A DNA stretch of 64,000 nt, from contig JAUXRP010000040.1 of assembly GCA_030681675.1 (NCBI GenBank), positions 310,001 through 374,000 of the forward strand, read 5' to 3'. Both the position numbers and the translations under genes were made by a program. The stretch's first letter is position 1. The number at the start of each line of letters is the position of its first letter. The notes under the pieces were generated by a model. That model did no database searches and had not been told where the DNA came from. It was given only the letters and a program-made list of their open reading frames with translations. The DNA is from Candidatus Planktophila sp. (GTDB lineage: Bacteria > Actinomycetota > Actinomycetes > Nanopelagicales > Nanopelagicaceae). Of this stretch, positions 36,109 to 49,018 are shown piece after piece.

Positions 36109-37194
36109 GTGCCCGTAAAAACAAACTACAAACCACGATTGGCTCTTAAAATTGGTGGTGAAATTACTCAAAATGTAGTTCAATTAAGACCCAGTGAACA
36201 GTTGGCTAAAACTTGGAGAAATTTTATCTTGAGTATAGACATAAAGTCGGAGCTATATTTTGGATTGAATTCGACAATTTTACAGAACGAAGTATTGAGA
36301 TTGCGAATAATTCCTGATTTAGGTTGCAAAATTGTAGAGATATTCGATAAAGAAAATCAGCATGAATGGCTCTGGTCTGATAAGTCGCGTCCAATAAAGT
36401 TAGCTGAATATGGTGATGCTTACGACAAATATGACATCAGTGGTTTCGACGAGTGTTTTCCCAATATCGGAATATCTAAATATCCTGAGAAAGATGAAAT
36501 CGAATTACCAGACCATGGTGAGATTTGGTCCTTGCCGTGGAAAGTAGAAAATACCGAACTAGGTATTACCGCAACTGTAATTGGAAAAATCTTTGAGTAC
36601 CGATTTTCCAGAAGAATTTCATTAATAGGTCGCAAGATATTAATTAATTATTCTGCTTCGAATATTGGGAAAATTGACATTACCTATTTGTGGTCGGCTC
36701 ATCCGCTCTTCAAAATCGATGACGATATGAAAATTGAGATTTCTGGAAACCCAAAGATGTTGAAGGAGTTTGGCTTTGGCGGACGAATTGGTGATGATGG
36801 CGAGGCTTGGCACGGCGGTCACTTATCAGAACATACCTGGCCAATAGTCTTAAGTAGAAACGGAAATCTAAGCGATATTAGTGAGGTTTCGCTTTCGAAA
36901 ATTTTGACGGATAAAGTTGTTTTAGATGCGCCAACTGACGGGATAGTCAAACTTAGAAAACTCAACTCTAATCGGATTTTATCAATGAAATTTGAACCAA
37001 ATAAAATTCCATATCTTGGAATTTGTTTTAACTTCGCCGCTTGGCCATTAACGGGTGAACCAGCAACTTGGGTAGCGCTGGAACCAACTACCGGAAGAAC
37101 CGATCGATTAGATGAGTGTAAGAGTTTAGACAGTGCGAAAATTCTGAAAGCGAATGAAAGCAAGGACTGGCAGTTAGAACTAGAGATTAATTGA
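36109..37194 (+). CDS. Aldose 1-epimerase-like (galactose mutarotase fold) protein
   Basis: A 361-residue protein of the galactose mutarotase superfamily. Motifs seen are RLRIIPDLGCKIVEIFDK near residue 65 (beta-sandwich start), SGFDECFPNIG near 110, YLWSAHPLFKID near 195 and AAWPLTGEPATWVALEPTTGRTDRLDE near the end. True GalM has two catalytic His and a Glu; here a His is seen in SAHPLF and a Glu in VALEPTTG, so activity is possible but the sugar is unknown. GTG start at 36109. It is convergent with the SMP-30 gene, overlapping by 8 bases. It probably serves the sugar pathway of this region. The gene is clearly more AT-rich than the nuo block. Confidence 0.75.
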   Translation: MPVKTNYKPRLALKIGGEITQNVVQLRPSEQLAKTWRNFILSIDIKSELYFGLNSTILQNEVLRLRIIPDLGCKIVEIFDKENQHEWLWSDKSRPIKLAEYGDAYDKYDISGFDECFPNIGISKYPEKDEIELPDHGEIWSLPWKVENTELGITATVIGKIFEYRFSRRISLIGRKILINYSASNIGKIDITYLWSAHPLFKIDDDMKIEISGNPKMLKEFGFGGRIGDDGEAWHGGHLSEHTWPIVLSRNGNLSDISEVSLSKILTDKVVLDAPTDGIVKLRKLNSNRILSMKFEPNKIPYLGICFNFAAWPLTGEPATWVALEPTTGRTDRLDECKSLDSAKILKANESKDWQLELEIN

Positions 37195-38050
37195 AGAGAA
37201 CTGTCTTATTGCCCTTAATCCCTGGATCTATCACGAAAGTCATCCCTGACTTTGGATTTTCTGTATCGTCGGTGCTGGCTGTAGTAATTACTAACATATC
37301 TAGATTTTCGCCTGCAAATGCGCATGAAGTAATATTTTTCACGGGCATTTTTATTTCATGAGTTTTCTTGCCTCTACTGTCATATCGTCGGATGTGTGAA
37401 CCTCCCCAAAAACCTACCCACATGCCGCCACCAGAATCTGAGCAACCTCCATCCGGCATGCCGTCCTTCTCCTCAAATGTCACTAATGTTCGACGATTAG
37501 TAATCCCATGATCTGAATAATCGAATCTATCTAATTGCATTGTTAACGTATCGATGTAATAGAAATATGATCCATCAGGGGACCAATCCAATCCGTTACT
37601 TATAGAAACCGAGGAGAGTAATTTAGTAATTGACTTTCCGTCCTTTGAGAATTTATAGAGAGAACCAGCGCCTTCTTTACCATCAAATGCCATTGTTCCT
37701 GCAAATAGTTCACCATTAGGTGCAACCTTCGCATCATTCCATCGAACTGGAATTTTTAGTGGCTCAGATTCAGCCTCAAGCCAACTTGGCAATGGTGACT
37801 CAGTTCCATCGATGTCTCTAAGTGTTGCACCAGATGAATGCCCGACAACAACTCCAAAATTCTTCCTTGGAAGCGCAAAACCAACTTCTGCGGGGGTTTC
37901 AAATGATCCAAACTCTCCAGAAATAATATCTCGCCATAAAACCTTAAAAGACAAGATATCAATCCACATCACATGGTTGTTTGTTTGGCCGCTAGAGGTA
38001 GGTCCTTCTCCCAGCACACAACGACGTTCATCAAATATTTCGATATTCAT
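37187..38050 (-). CDS. SMP-30/gluconolactonase family lactonase
   Basis: A 287-residue six-bladed propeller protein. Metal-site motifs are CVLGEGPT (Glu near 15), PVRWNDAKVAPNGELFAGTM (Asn/Asp near 103), ISNGLDWSPDG (Asn near 147) and MPDGGCSDSGGGMWVGFWGG (Asp near 198). This is the family that opens sugar lactones made by sugar 1-dehydrogenases. With the SDR at 42976 it would turn an aldose into an aldonic acid. It lies 33 bases from the ABC permease on the same strand, so they may be co-transcribed. Confidence 0.87.
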   Translation of the reverse strand: MNIEIFDERRCVLGEGPTSSGQTNNHVMWIDILSFKVLWRDIISGEFGSFETPAEVGFALPRKNFGVVVGHSSGATLRDIDGTESPLPSWLEAESEPLKIPVRWNDAKVAPNGELFAGTMAFDGKEGAGSLYKFSKDGKSITKLLSSVSISNGLDWSPDGSYFYYIDTLTMQLDRFDYSDHGITNRRTLVTFEEKDGMPDGGCSDSGGGMWVGFWGGSHIRRYDSRGKKTHEIKMPVKNITSCAFAGENLDMLVITTASTDDTENPKSGMTFVIDPGIKGNKTVLFN

Positions 38051-38083: not shown

Positions 38084-39049
38084 CTAATTCTTCATCTTAA
38101 GTGTAGAAATCCATACCGCAATAATCATCACCGCACCGACAACTGCCTCAAGTAAAAATGGATTCAAACCAAGCATTACCAACCCTTGAAGAATTACTTG
38201 AAGGAAAAGAATTCCAATGAATGCTCCGGTTAGCGAACCACCACCACCAGTCAATTTAATACCGCCTACAGCCGCTGCAGCGATAACACTCAATTCCCAA
38301 CCAAGGCCAGTTACGGCATCAGATCTTTCAAGTTTGCTCATCAATAAAATTCCGGCAAAGGCTGACAATGCGCCACAGAGTGTAAAGAGACCAATTTTTA
38401 TTTTATCAACTTTTATCCCAGATAGTTTTGCCGCCACTTGATTGCCGCCGATTAAATAGAATTGGCGACCAAGCACACTTCGTCGAACGAATTGGTCAGC
38501 AATAATGAAGAGTATTAAGAAAATCCATACTGCAGTCGGGAAACCTAAAATCATCGGTCTTGATAAATTACCAGTACCCTTTGGCAGTGGATAGACCGGG
38601 TCGCCTCCGCTTAGTACATATGAAATTCCGCGGGCTAAGAAGAGCATTGAAAGCGTTGTGATGAAAGCCGGAATTCCAACTCTTATTGTGATAAATCCAT
38701 TTAAAAATCCGACGAATGCACCTATGCCAATTCCGATTATTACTGCAACTGGTAATGGCAAATTCCAATCGGCAAGCATTAGACCTGTTGTGATTGTGCC
38801 CAAAGATGCAACTGCACCAACTGAAAGATCAAGCTCCCCAACGATCATTAAGAGAGCTTGCCCAATTAAAACTATTCCAGTATAAATAACGGTCACCAAT
38901 AGAATCTTTAAACTGGCAAGTGAAGCAAAATAGGGGTTGAAAGCTGAAAAGAGAATTAAAGTAGCAATAAAAACTATAAATAGTCCGAGTTCGGGAATTT
39001 TTTGAAAGATTTGAACTCGCTTCTTCGAATTTAGACTCAAAGTTGTCAT
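38084..39049 (-). CDS. Ribose-type ABC transporter permease (first)
   Basis: A 321-residue permease of the RbsC/AraH family with about nine membrane segments. Signatures are VLIGQALLMIVGELDLSVGAVASLGTITTGLML near residue 65, NGFITIRVGIPAFITTLSMLFLARGISYVLSGGDPVYPLP near 120 and VIAAAAVGGIKLTGGGGSLTGAFIGILFLQ near 255. It is divergent from the binding-protein gene. A second, different permease is at 42027; the two may form a heterodimer. Confidence 0.9.
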   Translation of the reverse strand: MTTLSLNSKKRVQIFQKIPELGLFIVFIATLILFSAFNPYFASLASLKILLVTVIYTGIVLIGQALLMIVGELDLSVGAVASLGTITTGLMLADWNLPLPVAVIIGIGIGAFVGFLNGFITIRVGIPAFITTLSMLFLARGISYVLSGGDPVYPLPKGTGNLSRPMILGFPTAVWIFLILFIIADQFVRRSVLGRQFYLIGGNQVAAKLSGIKVDKIKIGLFTLCGALSAFAGILLMSKLERSDAVTGLGWELSVIAAAAVGGIKLTGGGGSLTGAFIGILFLQVILQGLVMLGLNPFLLEAVVGAVMIIAVWISTLKMKN

Positions 39050-39146
39050 GATGCTTCAAACTCCTAACTCAATAAATAACTCTAACCTGGCGATAATTGT
39101 CGACTCATGGTTCGCGTTCTTTTCAATAAATATGACGACTTGCATT

Positions 39147-39190
39147 CTTGAAATACCCCCCAAGAATGCTTGAAATACCCCCCAAGAATC
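39147..39190 (+). repeat. Two tandem 22-base repeats between divergent transporter genes
   Basis: Unit 1 (39147-39168) and unit 2 (39169-39190) each read CTTGAAATACCCCCCAAGAA followed by TG or TC, identical over 21 of 22 bases and directly adjacent. Each unit has CTTG and CAAG as inverted ends; around unit 1 the arms extend to CATTCTTG and CAAGAATG (39143-39150 and 39161-39168). The 22-base period puts both on the same DNA face, as for regulator binding. They lie about 34 bases before the binding-protein promoter and 100 bases before the permease start. Confidence 0.75.
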
Positions 39191-39223
39191 TATTGACTTT
39201 TAACGCCGACTACTGAAGCATAC

Positions 39224-39260
39224 TTGACAATCGTTAATTGTAAACAGTATTAGTCTGTTT
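39224..39260 (+). promoter_or_regulatory. Promoter and operator of the binding-protein gene
   Basis: TTGACA at 39224-39229 and TATTAG at 39248-39253 form a promoter with an 18-base gap. Inside the gap is ATTGTAAACAGT (39237-39248), identical to the element at 48002-48013. A broken inverted repeat AAACAG-7 bases-CTGTTT covers 39242-39260. A binding site here would block RNA polymerase, so a repressor is suggested. The half-site TTGTAAAC recalls LacI-family operators. Confidence 0.5.
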
Positions 39261-39297
39261 CTCTTGATGCCCACTCTAGGAGGAGGATTTACGGAAA

Positions 39298-40368
39298 ATG
39301 GTGAAAGAAAAGAAAAGTAGCAAAGCTATATTTAAAACATTGGCAATATTTTCAGTTTCAGCGCTCTTGTTATCAGCTTGCTCATCGAAAGCAGAAGAGA
39401 GTGTTGCCACTGACGATGCTGGTGGAACTGCAGCTTCAAAGGTGTACACACCCATGGCAGCAGCGCCATGCGATGTCAGCGAAAAATCAATTACATTCTT
39501 GTCAGTGCTTAAGGGACACCCAACTCTTAGACTTTGGCAACAAGGTTTCTTGGATCAAGCAAATGCACTTGGCTTCAAGAGTGCAACAATTGTTTCTCCA
39601 GATGAGCCTGATTGGACTAAGGCAGTAACACTTGGCGAAGGCGTACTTGCGACCGGAACAGATGGACTTGTACTTGGTTTCGTTGATCCGGTTGAAAAAG
39701 ACTTGATCGCTAAATTTGCTGCGAAAGATATTCCGGTGGTAGTCGGACACGTTCAAGTAAAGCCAGATGAATATCCTGGCGTTATTGCATACGCAGCCTT
39801 TGATCCAAAGGCTTGGGGATCTGCCGCAGCAGATGCAATTGGCGAAAAAATTGAAGGCAAAGGAACTGTTGCAGTAACTGAAGGTGGCTTCAATCCAGTT
39901 GAAGATGCAGTTGCCGCCGCATTCACTGCTCAAATGAATGCGAAATATCCTGACGTTAAGGTTCTAAAGCCGGCTGAAGAGGGATTCGATGTACCAAAGG
40001 CGATCGCTAAGGCAGTTGCAATTGCTATTGCAAACCCAGATCTAGTTGGAGCAGTTGGAACCACTGGGGGAAGCCCTGTTACGTGGGCTGGCGCTTCAGA
40101 TCAAATCGGTAAGCCAATTTGGGCTATCGGACCTGATGCAACTCGTCCAAATCTTGACGCAGTTCGCGACGGAAAGATTCTTGGAGTGGCTGCACAACCA
40201 GGATACGAAGAACATCAAATGGCTGTCGATTTAGTTGCCAACGCAATTTGCGGCAACCCACCCGCACAATTCGCTAATGATTTGCCAACACCTATCATCT
40301 TTGCTGACGGTTTAGCACCTTATTACGCAGTTGTAGACGCAATTGATGCTCGAGTGGAGAATGAATAG
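39298..40368 (+). CDS. Ribose-type sugar-binding lipoprotein of ABC transporter
   Basis: A 356-residue periplasmic-binding-protein type I lipoprotein. The lipobox LLSAC gives Cys28, followed by an acidic/Gly linker. The fold is shown by FLSVLKGHPTLRLWQQGFLDQANALGF near residue 63, GLVLGFVDPVEKDLIAKFAAKDIPVVV and the late DGKILGVAAQPGYEEHQMAVDLVANAI. RbsB-like proteins bind monosaccharides or related small molecules; the ligand is unknown. A long Shine-Dalgarno AGGAGGAGG sits at 39278-39286, 11 bases upstream. It is followed by a strong hairpin that separates it from the ATPase gene. Confidence 0.9.
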   Translation: MVKEKKSSKAIFKTLAIFSVSALLLSACSSKAEESVATDDAGGTAASKVYTPMAAAPCDVSEKSITFLSVLKGHPTLRLWQQGFLDQANALGFKSATIVSPDEPDWTKAVTLGEGVLATGTDGLVLGFVDPVEKDLIAKFAAKDIPVVVGHVQVKPDEYPGVIAYAAFDPKAWGSAAADAIGEKIEGKGTVAVTEGGFNPVEDAVAAAFTAQMNAKYPDVKVLKPAEEGFDVPKAIAKAVAIAIANPDLVGAVGTTGGSPVTWAGASDQIGKPIWAIGPDATRPNLDAVRDGKILGVAAQPGYEEHQMAVDLVANAICGNPPAQFANDLPTPIIFADGLAPYYAVVDAIDARVENE

Positions 40369-40388
40369 GAACGAATAAGGCGTAAGAC

Positions 40389-40439
40389 ATAATAAGTGAA
40401 CCAGGCTAACGTCTATTAGTAGCTTGGTTCACTTATTAT
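40389..40439 (+). terminator. 19-bp stem-loop after binding-protein gene
   Basis: Left arm 40389-40407 (ATAATAAGTGAACCAGGCT), 13-base loop, right arm 40421-40439; all pairs match except one G-U. No long T run follows. It probably protects the binding-protein mRNA end and only partly stops transcription, giving more binding protein than ATPase or permease. Confidence 0.7.
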
Positions 40440-40485
40440 TCGCAATTCCCCTTGTGTGACTATAAATTTAATTCAAGGAAGGTAA

Positions 40486-42030
40486 ATGAGGATGCCAAGT
40501 TCCGATAGCACCGATTACGCCCTAGAAATGACTAAAATCCATAAGAACTTTGGACCCGTGATTGCGTTAGATTATGTTTCCTTGCAAGTAATAAGCGGCA
40601 CCATCCATGGATTGATTGGCCAGAACGGCGCTGGTAAATCCACTCTCATGAAAATATTGAGTGGTATCTATCCTTATGGAACATTCGGTGGTGAAATAAA
40701 GGTTTCAGGGGAATCAGTGAAAATGAATTCACCACTTGATGCCCAATTACGAGGAATATCAATCGTTCCGCAGGAGATCACGGTTGCAGATACGTTAACT
40801 GTGGCTGAGAATATCTTGCTCTCCGAGTTAGCAAGGCACCGATTTAGTTTCTATTTTAAAAAAAAGGGATTGCAAAAGATTGAGAAATTCTTAGAGGATA
40901 ATGAAATCCCTTTAATAGCTGACCAGCTGGTATCGGAACTTAGTTTGCACAAGAAGCAAATATTGATGATAGCCAGCGCTCTTTATAAAGATCCGAAAGT
41001 GCTTGTATTAGATGAACCTACCTCAAGTTTAACTTCTGATGAAATTGAAAATCTTTTTTCTATAGTAAGAAATCTAAAGAAACGTGGATTCACAACCGTC
41101 TTTATTACACATAAACTTCCTGAAATTCTTGAATTGTGCGATGCCGTCTCAATTTTGCGTGATGGCAAGACAGTACGAACGAGTAGCAGATCAGAATTTG
41201 TCGCAAATGCACTGGTAAGTGACATGATCGGAAGAAAATTGGGCGACCTTTATCCAGAGAAGAATCCTTTACCTGTTGATGCAAAAGTTATTTTTTCAGT
41301 TCGCAATTTGATTGTAGAGAACCCCCGTAAACCAGGCGAGAAGATGGTTTCGGAGTTTTCATTTGATTTGTACGCTGGCGAAATCCTTGGTCTGGGTGGA
41401 CTTGTCGGTTCTGGAAGAACCGAGATTCTTCGTGCACTGTACGGGGACAATAGAGTTTTAGCTGGGAAACTCGAGTTAGATGGCGCAGAGCTGATAGCCA
41501 AAGATATCCCCTCTGCAATTCAATCTGGGATTGGGTATGTGACTGAGGATCGAAAGATAGAGGGCTTATTCTTTAATTTGGAGATAAAATCAAACTCAAC
41601 TGCAAGTATTTTAGACAGTTTTAAAAAGTTCGGAATCTTGAATAAGCAAAAAGAAAAAGATGTTGCTACAGAAATTACCGAGTCGTTGGCAGTTAAACCT
41701 CAAGATATTTACGAGATGATCGGAAATCTCAGTGGTGGAAACCAACAAAAAGTATTAATTGGAAAAGGCTTACTTGCCAAGCCAATCATTTTTATGTTGG
41801 ATGAACCAACAAAGGGTGTTGACATAGCGTCAAAAGCTGAGATTTATCGAATCATAAGTGATTTAGCAAATAGGGGAGTCGGAATTATTTTGGTATCTAG
41901 CGAATTCCCAGAACTGTTAGCGCTATCTCATCGGATTTTAGTGTTTTCAGGAGGCGCAATGCGTGGGGAAATGGTTGGAGATATCACTAAAGAGAAGGAA
42001 CTTATGATGATGGCGATCGGGCAATCATGA
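40486..42030 (+). CDS. Ribose-type sugar ABC transporter ATPase
   Basis: A 514-residue protein with two ATP-binding halves (RbsA/MglA family). First half: Walker A GQNGAGKST near residue 48, Walker B VLVLDEPTSSL near 170, and a changed signature SLHKKQ in place of LSGGQ. Second half: a degenerate P-loop LVGSGRTE near 306, a normal signature LSGGNQQK near 415 and FMLDEPTKGVD near 440. This asymmetry is usual in the family. A good AGGAAGG lies before the ATG. It overlaps the second permease by 4 bases. Confidence 0.93.
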   Translation: MRMPSSDSTDYALEMTKIHKNFGPVIALDYVSLQVISGTIHGLIGQNGAGKSTLMKILSGIYPYGTFGGEIKVSGESVKMNSPLDAQLRGISIVPQEITVADTLTVAENILLSELARHRFSFYFKKKGLQKIEKFLEDNEIPLIADQLVSELSLHKKQILMIASALYKDPKVLVLDEPTSSLTSDEIENLFSIVRNLKKRGFTTVFITHKLPEILELCDAVSILRDGKTVRTSSRSEFVANALVSDMIGRKLGDLYPEKNPLPVDAKVIFSVRNLIVENPRKPGEKMVSEFSFDLYAGEILGLGGLVGSGRTEILRALYGDNRVLAGKLELDGAELIAKDIPSAIQSGIGYVTEDRKIEGLFFNLEIKSNSTASILDSFKKFGILNKQKEKDVATEITESLAVKPQDIYEMIGNLSGGNQQKVLIGKGLLAKPIIFMLDEPTKGVDIASKAEIYRIISDLANRGVGIILVSSEFPELLALSHRILVFSGGAMRGEMVGDITKEKELMMMAIGQS

Positions 42031-42986
42031 AATTGAATTTTAGTGCTTTCACTTCGTTATCGCCTTTTAATAAGCGATTGATCTTTGTTGCTGTAGTTTT
42101 CGGAATTTTCTCAATTCTTAATCCATCCTTTGCAAATTACGCAAGCATCCTTTCTATAGTTCAAGGTATAACTTTCGTGGGCATAGCCTCAATCTTTTTG
42201 GTTCTCCTCATAACTTCTGGAGAGTTCGATATCTCAATTGGTGCTACTGCTGCACTCAGTGCTTTGACTTCTGCAATTCTAGTGACGCACCAGGGTTTCA
42301 GCATGCTGAGTGCTTTTTTCATCAGTTTAGGCACAGGTATTTTAGTTGGACTAATAAATGGCCTAGTTGTGATTTATGGAAAAGTCCCTTCATTTATCGC
42401 AACAATCGCAATGCTATTCATGTGTAAGAGTCTGGCGACTTTTGTATCTGAAGGCAAAGGAATTGCAGATTTTCCAGATTTATATGAAGGATTTAAAAAT
42501 TCGATTCTTGGACAGTACTTCTCAATTATAATCTTTGTAGTTTTAATTTTTGTTGGCGAGTTAATATTAAATAAGAGCAATTTTGGAAAAGTAATTGCGG
42601 CGGTAGGAAGTAACCCTGAGGCGGCTCGAACCGCTGGTATTAATACAAATAGAGTTAAATTGCTACTCTTTATGGCGACAGGTTGCGGCGCAGCTTTGGC
42701 GGGGTATTTATCACTTCTGCATTTCGGTAGCGCATGGTTCACACTTGGATCCGGGTGGGAGCTTTTGGCGATTGCAGGAATGGTAATTGGAGGTACAAGT
42801 CTATTTGGTGGAAGAGGAACGGTAACTGGGCTATTTCTTGGGATGCTACTTATGCAAGTTGTTGCGAGCGGCATGGTAGCTTCACATATCGATCCCTGGT
42901 GGCAAACCGTCATAACTGGAGTTATCGTATTGGTCTCGCTTAGCGTTGATATGAAGCGAAAGAAGGTAAAATTCGATGCCAAATGA
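42027..42986 (+). CDS. Ribose-type ABC transporter permease (second)
   Basis: A 319-residue RbsC-family permease. Signatures are LLITSGEFDISIGATAALSALTSAIL near residue 55, NGLVVIYGKVPSFIATIAMLFMCKSLA near 110, AVGSNPEAARTAGINTNRVK and ELLAIAGMVIGGTSLFGGRGTVTGLFLGMLLMQ near 250. It differs strongly from the permease at 38084, so the system has two unlike permease subunits. It is translationally coupled to the ATPase and overlaps the SDR by 11 bases. Confidence 0.92.
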   Translation: MKLNFSAFTSLSPFNKRLIFVAVVFGIFSILNPSFANYASILSIVQGITFVGIASIFLVLLITSGEFDISIGATAALSALTSAILVTHQGFSMLSAFFISLGTGILVGLINGLVVIYGKVPSFIATIAMLFMCKSLATFVSEGKGIADFPDLYEGFKNSILGQYFSIIIFVVLIFVGELILNKSNFGKVIAAVGSNPEAARTAGINTNRVKLLLFMATGCGAALAGYLSLLHFGSAWFTLGSGWELLAIAGMVIGGTSLFGGRGTVTGLFLGMLLMQVVASGMVASHIDPWWQTVITGVIVLVSLSVDMKRKKVKFDAK

Positions 42987-43767
42987 GGCTTCGTTTATTC
43001 CCAATAGATTTGTTAACAAAGTTGTAATTGTTACAGGAGCTGAGTCAGGTATCGGCAAAGCTACCGCAACTAGATTTGCCCAAGAAGGTGCGATTGTTTA
43101 TGGACTAGGTTTGCGCGCTGAAATTGGCGAAGCTTGGGTTAAAGATATGGCGAGTTCAGGATTGAACGTAAATTTTAAAGTTTGCGACTTAAGGATTTCC
43201 GCAGCTATTGCGGCAGCCGTAACTGGAATTGGTGAAGCAAATAATGGTATTGATATAGTTGTAAATAATGCAGGAACTTTTCTGTTTAGGTCTGTAGATG
43301 AAACGTCTGAGGATGAATGGGATAACGTTCTAGATACAAATTTAAAAGGAGTTTTTTTAGTTTCTAAATATGCAATTCCTTTTCTTCGTAAAAGAGGCGG
43401 TGGATCAATCATAAATATCGCTTCAGTGCACGCATATGCAACGATGGAGAAAGTGGCTGCTTATGCAGCAAGTAAAGGTGCAATTGTTTCCCTGAGTAGG
43501 CAAATGGCAATTGATTACACAAAAGAAAGAATTCGAGTTAATTCTGTAGTTGTAGGGGGAGTAGACACCGATATGTCTAAGACGCACGCGTTGGCGCTCG
43601 GGAGACCTCTTGATGACCTTGGCTTTAATTCTGATGTAACCAAACTTGGTCGAGCTGCCCAGCCTCATGAAATTGCTGCTGGAATCATCTTCCTGGCTTC
43701 TCCGGAAGCTTCATTTGTGATTGGTGCACCATTTATTATTGATGGCGGACTCTTAACCGACCTTTAG
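42976..43767 (+). CDS. SDR-family oxidoreductase (probable sugar 1-dehydrogenase)
   Basis: A 263-residue classical short-chain dehydrogenase. Cofactor motif is VTGAESGIGKAT near residue 18 and NNAG near 95; the catalytic set is Ser in NIASVHAY and YAASK near 155-160. It ends with IIDGGLLTDL. The last gene of the transporter operon, overlapping the permease by 11 bases. Family members next to sugar ABC genes and an SMP-30 lactonase often oxidise an aldose at C1 to the lactone; that role is inferred from context. Confidence 0.85.
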   Translation: MPNEASFIPNRFVNKVVIVTGAESGIGKATATRFAQEGAIVYGLGLRAEIGEAWVKDMASSGLNVNFKVCDLRISAAIAAAVTGIGEANNGIDIVVNNAGTFLFRSVDETSEDEWDNVLDTNLKGVFLVSKYAIPFLRKRGGGSIINIASVHAYATMEKVAAYAASKGAIVSLSRQMAIDYTKERIRVNSVVVGGVDTDMSKTHALALGRPLDDLGFNSDVTKLGRAAQPHEIAAGIIFLASPEASFVIGAPFIIDGGLLTDL

Positions 43768-44382: not shown

Positions 44383-44525
44383 GGTGACCTCCAAGGTCTG
44401 TTCATATTGCCATTGATGTCTTAACTGATAATAGCTGAACTGTGATGTGAATATTGGGTAGCTCTGCTTTAATTTTATTGAAGAGTATATTGGTCTCTAT
44501 TCAAAACCCGATCTTGCAATAACTT

Positions 44526-44569
44526 TGAATGACCAAGTCTGTACTTCAAATGTTGAAATTGGTCATTCA
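44526..44569 (-). terminator. Stem-loop after the enolase-like gene
   Basis: TGAATGACCAA (44526-44536) and TTGGTCATTCA (44559-44569) are perfect 11-base arms. The loop holds a smaller hairpin TTCAA-ATG-TTGAA. It begins just after the minus-strand stop at 44574. The T run is weak, so the strength of termination is unclear. Confidence 0.6.
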
Positions 44570-44573
44570 CTAC

Positions 44574-45851
44574 TCACATGGGCTTAAAAGGGTTCGAAAA
44601 CTCAGTAACTTCAGTTGCTTCAAGCTCCAGCAGGCGATTCCATTTTGCGGTGCGCTCAGACCCATGTGTTGATCCGACTTTAATTTGACCTGCTCGCCAT
44701 CCAGTTGCACAATCTGCTAACCACGCATCCTCAGTTTCTCCAGATCTAGCCGAGACGACAGCATTGAAACCCGCGGCCTGTGCTTCCTTCAATACCGAGT
44801 AGGTTGAGGTAATTAAACCATTTTGATTGGCTTTAATGAGAATTGCATTTGATGAATTCTCAACTATGGCTCGCTCTAGTCTTGCCGAATTGGTAGTTAA
44901 GAGATCATCGCCGACAATCTGTAATGATTTTGGTGCAGTTTGTGTGAACTCATGCCAGGCTTCCCAATCATCCTCTGCAAATGGATCTTCTATTGAAGTA
45001 ATTGGAAATTCAGTGACAAGATTATGCACATACTTTACAAATTGCTCAGATTGATAGCTCTTTTGTGAGGTCCGTAAAAAGTATTGTCGGCCATTAAAGA
45101 ACTGTGTGGCCGCAATATCGAGTGCGAGTCGAACTTGAGAATCAATAGAGAGTCCCACCATTTCAATCGCCTCAATGACAAAGTCGCAAGCCATTTCAAT
45201 GGATTCAAAAGGAATTCCAAGCCCGCCCTCTGCGGCTACTAAGTGCGTTACTACTCCAGTCTCTGCTCCAAGTCTCGCTGCCATTTCGCGAACAGCCACA
45301 ATCCAAGAGATTGCTTCTGTAAATGATTTCGCGCCGACTGGAATGATCAAGATATCTTGAATGTCTAAACTATGATTTGCGTGGGCTCCTCCTGAAAGAA
45401 TATTTACCATCGGCATTGGAATCAATAATTTGCCTTCGGGCTGGAAATATCGGGCCAATGAAAGCTTTTCTGCATGTGCAGATGCAAGTGCTCCAGCTAA
45501 AGATACTGCCAGCGTTGCATTAGCCCCCAAAGTTGAATGATTTGGCGATGGATCTATGTCTTTAAGTGCACCATCGACGAAATCTAGGTTGATTTCGTTC
45601 CCGACAAGTTTTGGTGCAATGTGGTCATTAATGTTGTCAACTGCAGTGTAAACCGAATACGAACCATAAAATTTATTGGAGAGCGGAGAATCTCCATCAC
45701 GTAATTCAATCGCCTCATGTTTTCCAGTGGATGCACCTGAGGGAACTCGAGCGGTATGAGTAGAACCATCTTCTAGTGAAATTGCTGCCGCTACAGTTGG
45801 CTTTCCGTGAGAGTCAAGCACTTGATAACTCTGTAACTTTGTAATCTTCAT
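44574..45851 (-). CDS. Enolase paralog with altered active site
   Basis: A 425-residue member of the glycolytic enolase family by full-length similarity: VLDSHGKPTVAAAI at the start, the mobile loop PSGASTGKHEAIELRDGD, GGAHANH (His157), metal Asp245 (LALDIAATQFF), Glu288 (SIEDPF), Asp315 (IVGDDLL), Lys340 (ILIKANQNG) and Lys391 (QIKVGS). However, residues invariant in true enolase differ: the substrate His in the loop SHRSGETED is Ala368, the Glu of IQEFMI is Asp166, and the Asp in GDEGG is Ala207. Ordinary 2-phosphoglycerate dehydration would be impaired. Next to an MtnK-like kinase (4-base overlap) and a sugar-acid dehydratase, a phosphorylated sugar-acid substrate is a reasonable guess. 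Confidence 0.85.
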   Translation of the reverse strand: MKITKLQSYQVLDSHGKPTVAAAISLEDGSTHTARVPSGASTGKHEAIELRDGDSPLSNKFYGSYSVYTAVDNINDHIAPKLVGNEINLDFVDGALKDIDPSPNHSTLGANATLAVSLAGALASAHAEKLSLARYFQPEGKLLIPMPMVNILSGGAHANHSLDIQDILIIPVGAKSFTEAISWIVAVREMAARLGAETGVVTHLVAAEGGLGIPFESIEMACDFVIEAIEMVGLSIDSQVRLALDIAATQFFNGRQYFLRTSQKSYQSEQFVKYVHNLVTEFPITSIEDPFAEDDWEAWHEFTQTAPKSLQIVGDDLLTTNSARLERAIVENSSNAILIKANQNGLITSTYSVLKEAQAAGFNAVVSARSGETEDAWLADCATGWRAGQIKVGSTHGSERTAKWNRLLELEATEVTEFSNPFKPM

Positions 45852-46831
45852 CTGGCACTCAATTCAAAGAGTTTTCTCGCATCGACCACATCTCTATTAC
45901 GAAGAATATTTTTTGTAAACTTTTGCAACTTAACTTGAGCTGATTTATTTAGATAATCAACTGGTGATTTTCCTTCAACTCGCGCAAGTGCTATGAGCGC
46001 GGTATGGAGTGGAAGGCTTGAACTAATTGAATGGGAGGCCTCGTATTTACTTAAGAATTTGTCAGCAAGACTTGCAAGCTGTAAAGCCATCTGATCATTC
46101 TCTGCCCTGAAGAATTTGCAAAGTAAGTGTGAAACCAAGAATGCAAGATCAAAAATTGGATTTCCAACATGCATAACTTCAAAATCCAAGACATAAACTT
46201 GCTCGCCCGGCGTGACCATAATATTTTTGGGTGAAAAATCTCCATGAACAATTGTGCTGTTGTCTGACTTGAGTTCGTCAATCAAAGCGAAAATCGACTT
46301 TTGAAGATACGGATTTTTATCCCCGACAAATCTATAAAATGGGTCAACACGTAACTGTTCAAAAAGCGTATCCTCTTTAAATTTAGATTGGTACTTTGGA
46401 TGCTCTGCACCAAAGTGATGCCATTCGGCAAGGGTTTTACCTAGAACTTCTGGCACCATTGGATTAAAAATGCCAGTTAATAAGTCAGATTTCCAAACAC
46501 TACTTCCCAAAGGAAGACGCTCCATAATCAAGACAAATTCAATTGGATCAATGAATACTAGTTTTGGAACAACTGTTGGACTTATCTCATGAAAGAGTCG
46601 CAAAGCGTCGGCCTCAACAATTGCGCGACGTGGGTCGGCCTCCCACTTCTGAGCCACTTTTAACTCAGGCAAAGCCTGCTTTAACACTAAATCTTGGTAC
46701 TTTGTGGTAATCGACAAGACAGTATTCGAAACTCCACCTGTCAAGATTTCCACGCGGGGATCCTCAGTAGAAGTAACTACGCCATGATCGATTAAGTAGT
46801 CGATTACGGTTGATTCATTCAGTAACTCCAA
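45848..46831 (-). CDS. MtnK-like / aminoglycoside-phosphotransferase-fold kinase
   Basis: A 327-residue kinase. The N-lobe has EILTGGVSNTVLSI and VLKQALPELKVAQKW (ATP Lys51), which is strikingly like 5-methylthioribose kinase. The C-lobe has the catalytic loop VHGDFSPKNIMV (Asp198, Asn203) and the metal motif LDFEVMHVGNP (Asp216). It should phosphorylate a small sugar-like alcohol. No other methionine-salvage gene is nearby, so MTR is not assumed. It overlaps the enolase paralog by 4 bases, which argues that its product feeds that enzyme. Confidence 0.8.
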   Translation of the reverse strand: MELLNESTVIDYLIDHGVVTSTEDPRVEILTGGVSNTVLSITTKYQDLVLKQALPELKVAQKWEADPRRAIVEADALRLFHEISPTVVPKLVFIDPIEFVLIMERLPLGSSVWKSDLLTGIFNPMVPEVLGKTLAEWHHFGAEHPKYQSKFKEDTLFEQLRVDPFYRFVGDKNPYLQKSIFALIDELKSDNSTIVHGDFSPKNIMVTPGEQVYVLDFEVMHVGNPIFDLAFLVSHLLCKFFRAENDQMALQLASLADKFLSKYEASHSISSSLPLHTALIALARVEGKSPVDYLNKSAQVKLQKFTKNILRNRDVVDARKLFELSAR

Positions 46832-46861
46832 GGTCCTTCTTCTTCCTATTGAGTTTGATTC

Positions 46862-47965
46862 TTAGGATGAGTAACGCTCAATTGCTTGCCAATCCCATTG
46901 GATTCCAAAGCCCGGCTCTGTATTAAGGATAGCTTTCCCATTTCTAATTTCTATCGGATTAAGTAAAAGATGATGGAATAAATCGATTTCGTATCGGGGA
47001 TCTAGGTACTCCAGTCCTCCAGGATAGAGATTTGGGGTGGCTGCGGCTAATTGGGAGTGAATTTCAGTGTGGATATGAGTAGCAAAAGTTTTACCCTTGC
47101 TATTGGCATACTCAACTGCTTTAAGAAATTCACTAACGCCGCCAATGACGAGTGCGTCTATGCGCAATACATCAACGTGATTATAGTAAAGCGCTTGCTC
47201 TGCCATCTTTGACGAAGCCAAAGACTCTCCAAAAGAGACCGGGACTCCAGTGGCTTCGCGTAAAGCGATGGCTGCCACACCCTCGGATTCAAGAAATGGG
47301 TCCTCTACAAATGAAATCCCAAACTCTTTTATAAGGTTCACTCGTGTAATTGCATTTTCTAAATTGCTGAGCGTCCTAAATGCATCAACTGCTATTAGAA
47401 CAGAGTCCCCAACTTTTTCTCTTAGTACTTTTAAACGTTTCACATCGCGCTCTGGCGTCTCAGCACCGAAAACGATCTTAAATGAATTTATTCCGCGGCT
47501 AAGTGCGAAATCAATCTCTTCTTCAAGCCCGGCTTCGTCTTTGCCATAGTGATAGCCCACAACAGAATAAATTGGAAGTTCACTCAGTTGAGCCCCGAGC
47601 ATGCTGGCGATACTTTTACCCAGCCGCTTTCCACCGATATCGTTAAGCGCAATATCTATCGCGCTCAGACCAGCTGTCAAGGTTCCATGTTCTGCAGATT
47701 GCCAATTGAAACCGAGCACTAATCTTCGGATTTCATGGGGGGATTCAGAAGTCTTCCCAATGATAACCGGCGTCATGACATCGTCGATGATTTTTGTGAT
47801 TGGTAGACCTCGGCTATAGCAATAGCCAACTCCAGTGATCCCGTCTTCTGTCGTAATTCTTACAACCGAATAACTTCGATGGGTTATGAGAGCCGATCCA
47901 ACTGATAGTGGTTGCGGAAGAGGGACTCGGGTTTCAAAAGTTTCTATTGAGTTGATTCTGTCCAC
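46862..47965 (-). CDS. Mandelate racemase/muconate lactonizing family dehydratase
   Basis: A 367-residue enolase-superfamily enzyme. Metal ligands: Asp194 (IAVDAF), Glu221 (FVEDPF), Glu247 (SFGESL). The base dyad Asp270 (LRIDALVIGG) with a His in THIHTEIH (297 or 299) is present. The KxK position reads SFKIVFG, so Lys163 is kept but the second, usually catalytic Lys is Val165. This pattern suggests an acid-sugar dehydratase that uses the His-Asp dyad; the exact sugar acid is unknown. GTG start. Promoter TTGACC-17-TAGCAT lies directly upstream. It is divergent from the epimerase gene. Confidence 0.87.
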   Translation of the reverse strand: MDRINSIETFETRVPLPQPLSVGSALITHRSYSVVRITTEDGITGVGYCYSRGLPITKIIDDVMTPVIIGKTSESPHEIRRLVLGFNWQSAEHGTLTAGLSAIDIALNDIGGKRLGKSIASMLGAQLSELPIYSVVGYHYGKDEAGLEEEIDFALSRGINSFKIVFGAETPERDVKRLKVLREKVGDSVLIAVDAFRTLSNLENAITRVNLIKEFGISFVEDPFLESEGVAAIALREATGVPVSFGESLASSKMAEQALYYNHVDVLRIDALVIGGVSEFLKAVEYANSKGKTFATHIHTEIHSQLAAATPNLYPGGLEYLDPRYEIDLFHHLLLNPIEIRNGKAILNTEPGFGIQWDWQAIERYSS

Positions 47966-47973
47966 AGTTGAAG

Positions 47974-48002
47974 ATGCTATATGCTTGATTCTTTTTGGTC
48001 AA
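47974..48002 (-). promoter_or_regulatory. Promoter of the dehydratase gene
   Basis: On the minus strand TTGACC (48002-47997), a 17-base gap and TAGCAT (47979-47974), then 8 bases to the GTG at 47965, so the transcript is close to leaderless. The shared element ACTGTTTACAAT abuts the -35 on the upstream side. Confidence 0.5.
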
Positions 48003-48034
48003 CTGTTTACAATGGAAACTCGCGCAAGCATAAT
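48002..48034 (+). promoter_or_regulatory. Promoter and operator of the epimerase gene
   Basis: TTTACA (48006-48011), 17 bases, CATAAT (48029-48034). The element ACTGTTTACAAT at 48002-48013 overlaps the -35; it is the reverse complement of the 12 bases at 39237-39248. GTTT-7 bases-AAAC forms a loose inverted repeat here. A repressor bound here could shut both divergent genes. Confidence 0.5.
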
Positions 48035-48052
48035 CAATGAAAAGGAAATCAA

Positions 48053-49018
48053 ATGAGAGTGCTCCTCTTTGGCGGAACTAGATTTATGGGGCGTTATGTA
48101 TTGAAAGCGCTGCTGGAAAATGGTGTGGATGTAACGATCGCTAATCGCGGCACACGTGAGGAAAATCTTGGAGCTACAAATGTAAAGTGTGACCGCTCGG
48201 AACCAGGCTCACTCAATCAATTTACAGATTCACACTTCGATGCAGTTATCGATTTTTCAGCTTATGCATCAGCCTGGGTTGAAGAGGCTGGAGAATTTTT
48301 CGCCAATAAAATTTCGAAATATATCTTTATTTCAACCGGTGCTGTTTATACCGCTAGTAATATTTTTCCAATTACCGAAGATTTCCCAAAAGGGCCACCA
48401 CATCTTTTTGCAGATTATGCGCGAGAAAAGATTCGTTCCGAGTCTCTACTTATTGAATTTAGTAAGAAAGGGTATTTTCAGACGACTTCTTGTCGATTGC
48501 CATTTGTATTGGGACCGGATAATTATGAAGATCGCGAATCATTTGTATTCAGTCGATTATTGAACGGGGATCCAATTTATTTGGCAAACGGCGGGAAATC
48601 AATACACTCATTTATATTTGCAGGTGATGTCGCCGCAGCAATAGTCTCGATTTTGAAGGCCGACGAAAGTGTGGATGGTGAAGCTTTCAATATTGCGATT
48701 CCACAGACGATTACAAGTCGAGGATTTGTAGACATTGCCGGCAAAATTTCCGGCAAAACGCCGAATGTCATTTCATACGTTCCTGAAGATTTTAGAATTG
48801 ATACCTCAAATTTTGATTTGCGAAATGTTGCTTTTCCATTTCCCGAAAACAACGCATTTCTTAGTTCTGAAAAGATTAAATCAGTACTTGGATTTATTCC
48901 GAAGCTCTCGCTAGAGGAGATGCTATCCACGTACCATAAGTGGTGGTTGGATAAATCGGATCTTAACCCAAAAGAGTACCCACTTGAGAATCGAATTAAA
49001 GAAGAACTTAATGGTTAG
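48053..49018 (+). CDS. NAD-dependent epimerase/dehydratase (extended SDR)
   Basis: A 321-residue extended SDR. The nucleotide motif is LLFGGTRFMGRYV near residue 5 and the catalytic YxxxK is YAREK near 125, with FISTGAVYT supplying the Ser/Thr. The GGTRFMG form and the late HSFIFAGDVAAAI are typical of a subgroup acting on sugars or nucleotide sugars, which also includes RNA-binding relatives. The exact reaction is unknown. RBS AAGGAAA precedes the ATG. Divergent from and probably co-regulated with the dehydratase. Confidence 0.82.
   Translation: MRVLLFGGTRFMGRYVLKALLENGVDVTIANRGTREENLGATNVKCDRSEPGSLNQFTDSHFDAVIDFSAYASAWVEEAGEFFANKISKYIFISTGAVYTASNIFPITEDFPKGPPHLFADYAREKIRSESLLIEFSKKGYFQTTSCRLPFVLGPDNYEDRESFVFSRLLNGDPIYLANGGKSIHSFIFAGDVAAAIVSILKADESVDGEAFNIAIPQTITSRGFVDIAGKISGKTPNVISYVPEDFRIDTSNFDLRNVAFPFPENNAFLSSEKIKSVLGFIPKLSLEEMLSTYHKWWLDKSDLNPKEYPLENRIKEELNG

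Follow-up and report, generated by a model that had tools for sequence, protein, structure and literature searches.

A conserved gene pair of a kinase and an enolase paralog in bacteria and haloarchaea, with a proposed role in hydroxy-acid metabolism

Enolase is usually regarded as a single-function housekeeping enzyme. A homologue with a substrate other than 2-phosphoglycerate is carboxyphosphonoenolpyruvate synthase, which belongs to secondary metabolism in phosphinothricin biosynthesis and for which we know of no kinase partner. Three classes of glycerate kinase (I, II and III) are described in the accessible part of one report, class II yielding 2-phosphoglycerate (PMC2063504), and the enolase paralogs of SAR202 are, in the portion available of another, mostly annotated as mandelate racemase (MR)-type dehydratases and not of the type considered here (PMC6946804). 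Here we analysed a 64,000-nucleotide stretch of Candidatus Planktophila sp. (GCA_030681675.1, contig JAUXRP010000040.1, positions 310,001 to 374,000; hereafter the window), lying on contig 40 of a 1.83 Mb genome assembled in 46 contigs, which carries an enolase-family paralog, ENOP, next to a methylthioribose-kinase-fold kinase, KIN. On balance we lean towards the view that the two form a widespread cross-domain module, in which a kinase of a new class and a true enolase put to a different use would turn a hydroxy acid unusable in glycolysis (L-glycerate or a C4 acid) into phosphoenolpyruvate (PEP) or a PEP homologue.

ENOP (425 aa; 44574-45851, minus strand), identified from its open reading frame (ORF) and by family models, scored 418 bits against the full-length enolase family model TIGR01060 eno (cut-off 300), and its AlphaFold model (pLDDT 90.1) has enolases as its nearest folds, with a Foldseek TM of 0.94 to the C. 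aurantiacus enolase 4z17. The protein retains the metal ligands D245, E288 and D315, the lysines Lys340 and Lys391, and Glu208, together with Ser41, His157, Gln165, Arg369 and Ser370, all of which are kept in 95 of 95 ENOPs. Two active-site residues are replaced: Asp stands for Glu at position 166 in 100 of 100 ENOPs (the 95 aligned first plus 5 further rows), and residue 368, His in canonical enolases, is Ala in 99 of the 100 and Gly in one, whereas Glu166 and His368 are present in 31/31 canonical enolases, a comparison set drawn from 30 genomes carrying KIN or ENOP. ENOPs of 380 residues or fewer were omitted before these counts, and a few genomes were entered twice under different locus ids. 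We take the replaced substrate-contacting Glu and the pocket His to be residues 168 and 373 of yeast enolase; both are positioned around C3 of the substrate. In an alignment with the C. aurantiacus enolase, Asp166 corresponds to Glu165 and the kept residues to Glu206, Lys338, Arg367 and Ser368, the five residues that, in the accessible text of the structural report, hold 2-phosphoglycerate (PMC4450660).

Asp166, Ala207 and Ala368 were all as the original prediction, an earlier reading of this DNA, had described them, with the distinction that Ala207 occurs in the window genome alone (Asp in 94 of 95 ENOP rows). Asp166 and Ala368 are near-invariant over the subfamily and are therefore not due to chance; the replacements are uniform, not decayed. 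Eleven sites separate the 100 ENOPs from the 31 canonical enolases, about seven of them becoming smaller in ENOP (including M149V, N153S/G, E166D, M366V and H368A) and two, 35 and 184, becoming larger. The first 13 plasmid stretches yielded 13 enolase-type proteins encoded near KIN; 12 have Asp and Ala, those of haloarchaea included, and the thirteenth, from Enterobacter, is degenerate, with Asp and Gly but with Lys at the general-acid Glu. This last homologue and a KIN-like kinase lie in a biosynthesis-like cluster of an Enterobacter chuandaensis plasmid (L244, NZ_CP097174.1) that also encodes a U32 protein, an aminotransferase, an iron-containing redox enzyme, an M14 peptidase and an MFS transporter.

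ENOP is a paralog. It had been considered that it might be the only enolase of its genome, which did not prove to be the case, as the window genome encodes a separate canonical copy. Close ENOPs (57-100% identity, some cut by contig ends) occur in 60 of 151 genomes of the family, the window genome included, and divergent ones in at least three more. Among 41 ENOP-bearing genomes searched with canonical enolase, 39 yielded a canonical copy; in G551 and G1331 ENOP was the sole enolase found, and G547 shows the canonical copy alone, its ENOP being truncated at the end of a contig. In a tree of 47 ENOPs and 31 canonical enolases, which the original prediction had proposed as a check, the signature proteins all fall on one side of a single branch and the canonical enzymes on the other (support 100/99, recovered in 100% of 200 bootstrap trees), although the tree is unrooted and such a grouping does not prove a single origin of ENOP.

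KIN (327 aa; 45848-46831, minus strand), likewise called from its ORF and family models, overlaps ENOP by four bases (ATGA). Its likeness to methylthioribose kinase and this overlap had both been predicted; KIN scored 77.7 bits against TIGR01767, whose cut-off is 275 and which has 401 positions, and therefore falls outside that equivalog. Pfam matches at E up to 0.001 were PF01636 (APH), PF19974 and PF02958 only, while the same Pfam scan gave no match to PF02595 or PF13660, the class I and class II glycerate kinase models. The motifs HGD, SPKN and DFE are conserved. Among the matches listed in VIA-align, methylthioribose kinases are the closest folds to its AlphaFold model (pLDDT 91.7), at Z 34.7-36.6 and 2.2-2.3 Å (Z 36.6 and 2.3 Å over 323 residues); the next are PsiK, at Z 33.1 and 27.8, followed by folds below 25. 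A role in methionine salvage was set aside, as no methionine-salvage gene name occurs among the annotated plasmid neighbours of KIN, where alone it was looked for.

The pairing of the two genes is conserved. KIN adjoins ENOP in 20 of 20 neighbourhoods within the family, and an alignment scan of 84,980 species genomes confirmed 109 relatives of KIN, the best 80 of which were examined as loci, many shortened by contig ends. ENOP is present in 70 of these 80, on the same strand and within 200 bp of KIN in 69 of the 70 and at 403 bp in the other (L123); of the ten loci without it, eight lie on contigs that end 2-571 bp past KIN. KIN is uncommon in wide draws of genomes (the centre genome counted in each): 5 of 250 in the class of the Pelosinus match, 9 of 398 in the phylum of the Rhodospirillales match, 18 of 246 in Planctomycetota and 4 of 396 in Actinomycetota. 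Both genes were found in 29 of 37 loci fetched from these draws (4 of the 29 genomes being already among the 80 loci), and 26 of the 29 pairs adjoin on one strand, the remaining three being separated by 4.6 kb (L145), 7.9 kb (L147) and 1.5 kb (L159). Two of the eight fetched loci without ENOP (L137 and L142) end beside KIN.

Co-occurrence extends to genomes in which the genes are not neighbours. Across the 246 Planctomycetota, an exact pattern for the ENOP strand-7 signature matched all 18 genomes with KIN and 1 of 228 without it, namely G1430, where ENOP lies at a contig end, and a reversed control pattern matched none of the 246 (Fisher p 2e-26, a value inflated by genome relatedness). Both genes are present, far apart or on different contigs, in G1254, G1328, G1369 and G1398. 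Pairwise distances of KIN and ENOP correlate with r of 0.957 over 76 pairs and 0.868 over 27 distant pairs (0 of 2000 permutations each). The pair spans Actinomycetota, Bacillota (Negativicutes), Pseudomonadota, Planctomycetota, Bacteroidota and Halobacteria. Among 14 examined of 32 matching plasmid records, it was seen in Rhizobium, Rhodococcus, Azospirillum, Sphingobium, Methylobacterium, Roseibium, Paracoccus, Persicobacter (Bacteroidota) and the haloarchaea Haladaptatus and Halomarina, and it occurs both in freshwater acI actinobacteria and in the cultured strains Rhodococcus opacus PD630, Azospirillum brasilense Sp 7 and Paracoccus seriniphilus DSM 14827. The part of the original prediction that links a kinase with a non-canonical enolase is supported, as a conserved unit that often lies among sugar-acid genes, and the concern that the gene set might be conserved nowhere else fell away.

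The conserved unit is nevertheless smaller than the four genes originally proposed, which had added an MR-family gene (MRD) and an extended SDR gene (SDRe): in the best 80 of 109 KIN loci, MRD occurs in 10 and SDRe in 8, each of the latter together with MRD, so that the unit is the two genes KIN and ENOP, and MRD and SDRe are lineage-specific. More frequent neighbours are a small SDR (47 loci), a U32-like protein (45), an IlvD-type dehydratase (36), a FAH-type hydrolase (33) and a lactonase (16); no locus has both MRD and the U32-like protein. Genes of fetched loci were predicted by in-house scoring, and names come from Pfam, NCBIfam, record annotation or cluster membership where stated. The U32-peptidase-like protein (L037:6562-7452 and homologues), whose sole Pfam match is PF01136 at 34.6 bits, heads a U32-SDR-KIN-ENOP run and may be an unrecognised sugar-acid enzyme.

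Beyond these counts, KIN-ENOP is followed by FAH and SDR in Roseibium, Paracoccus, L146 and L150 and by SDR and FAH in Asanoa; the best match of the FAH protein near ENOP is NCBIfam DhyDRhmHlse, below cut-off. A 2-hydroxyacid dehydrogenase lies in six fetched loci, its family confirmed for four, and Rhodococcus and Rhizobium records have beside the genes a "C-terminal binding protein" that, from general knowledge and the homologous arrangement in L145, we take to be such a dehydrogenase. Both KIN and this dehydrogenase have PEP carboxylase next to them in L145 and in two rhizobia. Negativicutes loci carry an HpcH aldolase, GarR and RraA, and the dehydrogenase and GarR neighbours also score, below cut-off, with 4-phosphoerythronate and L-threonate dehydrogenases. 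Other arrangements include a small run, RpiR regulator-ENOP-GntP permease-KIN (L159), KIN-ENOP-LarA-lactate permease (L138), and GlcF-like-KIN with RraA-ENOP (L205), and in L048 a class I glycerate kinase directly follows ENOP. MR-type genes also lie near KIN in L151, L146 and haloarchaea.

Several further arrangements were observed around KIN. A URO-D-family protein and another conserved gene precede it in five of five Negativicutes loci (L137, L138, L139, L140 and L154; Pfam run on L138). On the haloarchaeal plasmids L245 and L246, KIN-ENOP is part of large sugar-acid clusters that also contain MR-type genes (four and five), cupins, TCP-1/cpn60 chaperonin genes and a gene named ilvC. A pyruvate phosphate dikinase (PPDK)-type gene (L048:3592-6330) adjoins SDRe in an MRD-KIN-ENOP-glycerate kinase cluster, and in L136 and L153 a distant KIN relative (26-30% identity) adjoins a PEP-utilising enzyme, PPDK-like by eye, with no ENOP nearby.

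Pairing, signature, kept ligands and paralogy can be read from the sequences, and from these and the gene context we infer every reaction of KIN and ENOP given here. KIN would transfer phosphate from ATP to the 2-hydroxyl of a short 2,3-dihydroxy acid, and ENOP, as a non-glycolytic enzyme, would bind the resulting 2-phospho acid through the canonical metal ligands, phosphate ligands and lysine pair and eliminate water to give an enol phosphate, since the kept residues suggest that it still binds a carboxylate with a C2 phosphate and metal and still has its base and acid. In the window genome, the acid might be supplied by sugar-acid breakdown through the transporter, dehydrogenase, lactonase, MR dehydratase and SDR encoded nearby. 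The FAH hydrolase, 2-hydroxyacid dehydrogenase, GarR, PEP carboxylase, and lactate and gluconate permeases found in subsets of loci suggest a route from glycerate to PEP: the neighbours appear to produce acids at the glycerate level or to bring them into the cell, and no enzyme obviously suited to a larger product is encoded in the small operons, which points to conversion of a glycerate-type acid into PEP. A dedicated two-enzyme module working at the glycerate level, on either enantiomer, we regard as evenly balanced between right and wrong, an estimate that partly overlaps with the D-glycerate alternative weighed below, so that our grades do not add up to a single whole. Our committed guess within it, tentative and by inference, runs from L-glycerate through L-2-phosphoglycerate to PEP, given that the canonical enolase found in nearly every such genome already handles D-2-phosphoglycerate. 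L-2-phosphoglycerate is, in the accessible parts of two reports, a substrate of CpgD (PMC12275187, PMC13228409).

Several observations weigh against this reading. L109 and L132 have room for ENOP but none beside KIN, although the L132 genome carries ENOP on another contig; ENOP is likewise missing beside KIN but present elsewhere in the genomes of L162, L164, L167, L168 and L173, and the distant L153 has none within 10 kb, the stretch alone having been searched. A KIN-like gene in Enterobacter stands beside an enolase homologue without the catalytic Glu. Two neighbours favour the D over the L enantiomer: GarR, which makes D-glycerate, and the dehydrogenase next to KIN, whose family carries the name D-isomer specific. 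The smaller side chains at about seven of the 11 separating sites would also suit a longer substrate. The LarA neighbour belongs to the LarAH10 family, whose tested member, in the available text of its description, racemises glycerate very weakly, at 0.12 per M per s, and we dropped it for that reason as a direct pointer to glycerate (PMC11770544). Separately, L109, itself a member of the family, has a small SDR and FAH with KIN.

The point on side chains bears on a possible though doubtful alternative, in which ENOP acts with canonical (2R) stereochemistry on a longer 2-phospho acid of at least four carbons (2-phospho-erythronate, 2-phospho-threonate or 4-deoxy analogues) to give a 3-substituted PEP, the loss of His and the shortening of Glu to Asp making room for the extra C3 substituent. 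The kept acid/base and metal set would permit the usual stereochemical course, and the below-cut-off scores of the neighbouring dehydrogenase and GarR with C4-acid enzymes fit such a substrate, but sites 35 and 184 become larger, no downstream enzyme for a substituted PEP was seen to be conserved with the pair (small operons add a regulator, permease or racemase), and plain PEP is the product suggested by the PEP carboxylase next to KIN in rhizobia. That KIN is instead a fourth class of D-glycerate 2-kinase, with ENOP an ordinary-enolase isozyme on D-2-phosphoglycerate kept adjacent for regulation or channelling, seems unlikely to us. The HpcH/GarR, 2-hydroxyacid dehydrogenase, GlcF-like and FAH contexts are all compatible with it, and no class I or II glycerate kinase occurs in 14 of 17 genomes of the family that carry KIN (vs 6 of 12 without KIN), so that KIN could simply be their D-glycerate kinase, a further point against the L-glycerate guess. 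A class I or II enzyme is already present, however, in 27 of 32 distant KIN-carrying genomes, which argues for L-glycerate; a canonical enolase accompanies ENOP in 39 of 41 genomes, and the two active-site replacements are all but universal, at positions where substitution costs yeast enolase much of its activity.

The scheme of the original prediction, a four-gene pathway in which the MR dehydratase would supply a 2-keto-3-deoxy acid to the kinase and ENOP would work on the phosphate so formed, is quite improbable. The order MRD-KIN-ENOP in the window, MRD in 10 of the 80 loci and the MR-type genes near KIN in L151, L146 and haloarchaea would fit it, but 70 of the 80 loci have no MRD homologue above 35% identity (some being cut by contig ends), enolase requires an alpha-hydrogen and a beta-hydroxyl, neither of which a 2-keto-3-deoxy acid has, and the neighbours suggest the glycerate level and PEP instead of a phosphorylated keto-deoxy acid. 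Phosphorylation of the enol of such an acid, considered unfavourable, and sulfite elimination from phosphosulfolactate were set aside, with no search dedicated to either. It is harder still to believe that ENOP serves KIN as a scaffold or regulator with weak catalysis of its own: two active-site residues are lost and the genes overlap, but the replacements are uniform, and all 95 ENOPs keep the metal, Lys, Glu208 and phosphate residues without change.

In the window, the four genes lie where the original prediction placed them. MRD (46862-47965, minus strand) is the first gene of a minus-strand run in the order MRD, KIN, ENOP; it has MR_MLE N and C domains in Pfam and is acid-sugar-dehydratase-like, and of the 15 NCBIfam models it matched none was above cut-off, the best being L-talarate/galactarate dehydratase at 159.8 against 500 bits. 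SDRe, an extended SDR by Pfam (48053-49018, plus strand), diverges from MRD. An inverted repeat (44520-44573, minus strand; predicted -15.7 kcal/mol), terminator- or operator-like, lies directly downstream of ENOP. Outside the conserved core are a sugar ABC transporter assigned by family calls (38084-42986), a classical SDR that ends the transporter run (42976-43767, plus strand) and an SMP-30/SGL lactonase by Pfam (37187-38050, minus strand); these accessory genes are present as predicted but not upstream, since they lie beyond ENOP at lower coordinates, downstream of the minus-strand operon. Beside the lactonase gene, a 361-aa ORF (36109-37194) has no Pfam or NCBIfam match.

Five bacterial phyla and the haloarchaea share an enolase subfamily that is linked to a kinase of its own and in which two active-site residues are uniformly altered; this suggests that central carbon metabolism has an entry point not recognised so far. 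ENOP is annotated as phosphopyruvate hydratase or enolase in 10 of 10 examined plasmid records in which it is annotated, so models of glycolysis may be counting the wrong gene; a gene labelled as ordinary glycolysis probably does something else. As the pair occurs in cultured strains, this is testable now.

Compared with glycolytic enolase (TIGR01060, PF00113/PF03952), ENOP shares the whole fold, metal ligands, Lys pair, general-acid Glu and phosphate-binding Arg-Ser but differs in the Asp in place of the substrate Glu, the Ala in place of the His before the phosphate Arg, the pairing with a kinase and the paralogy to a canonical copy. KIN resembles MtnK (TIGR01767) in fold and in the HGD, SPKN and DFE motifs and differs from it in score and length. 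Some known versions of the L-rhamnonate-type diketo-hydrolase pathway end in lactate and are not known to involve a kinase and an enolase. The dehydratase, SDR and FAH-hydrolase set of that pathway likewise stands beside many KIN-ENOP pairs, whereas the version described in the accessible part of its source ends in glycolate, without kinase and enolase (PMC9795676). With glycerate kinases KIN would share the proposed type of reaction, yet it matches APH and neither the class I nor the class II Pfam models. The literature searched on enolase paralogs, sugar acids, glycerate and related kinases, its subscription part covered in part, gave no description of the KIN-ENOP pair. The archaeal enolase paralogs arCOG01169 and arCOG01170 are likewise second enolase-family genes whose function is thought to have shifted, but some of their branches are tied to the ribosomal superoperon, and the accessible text describes no kinase partner (PMC4390880). 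What appears to be new here is an enolase subfamily that has a kinase as its partner and a putative new reaction.

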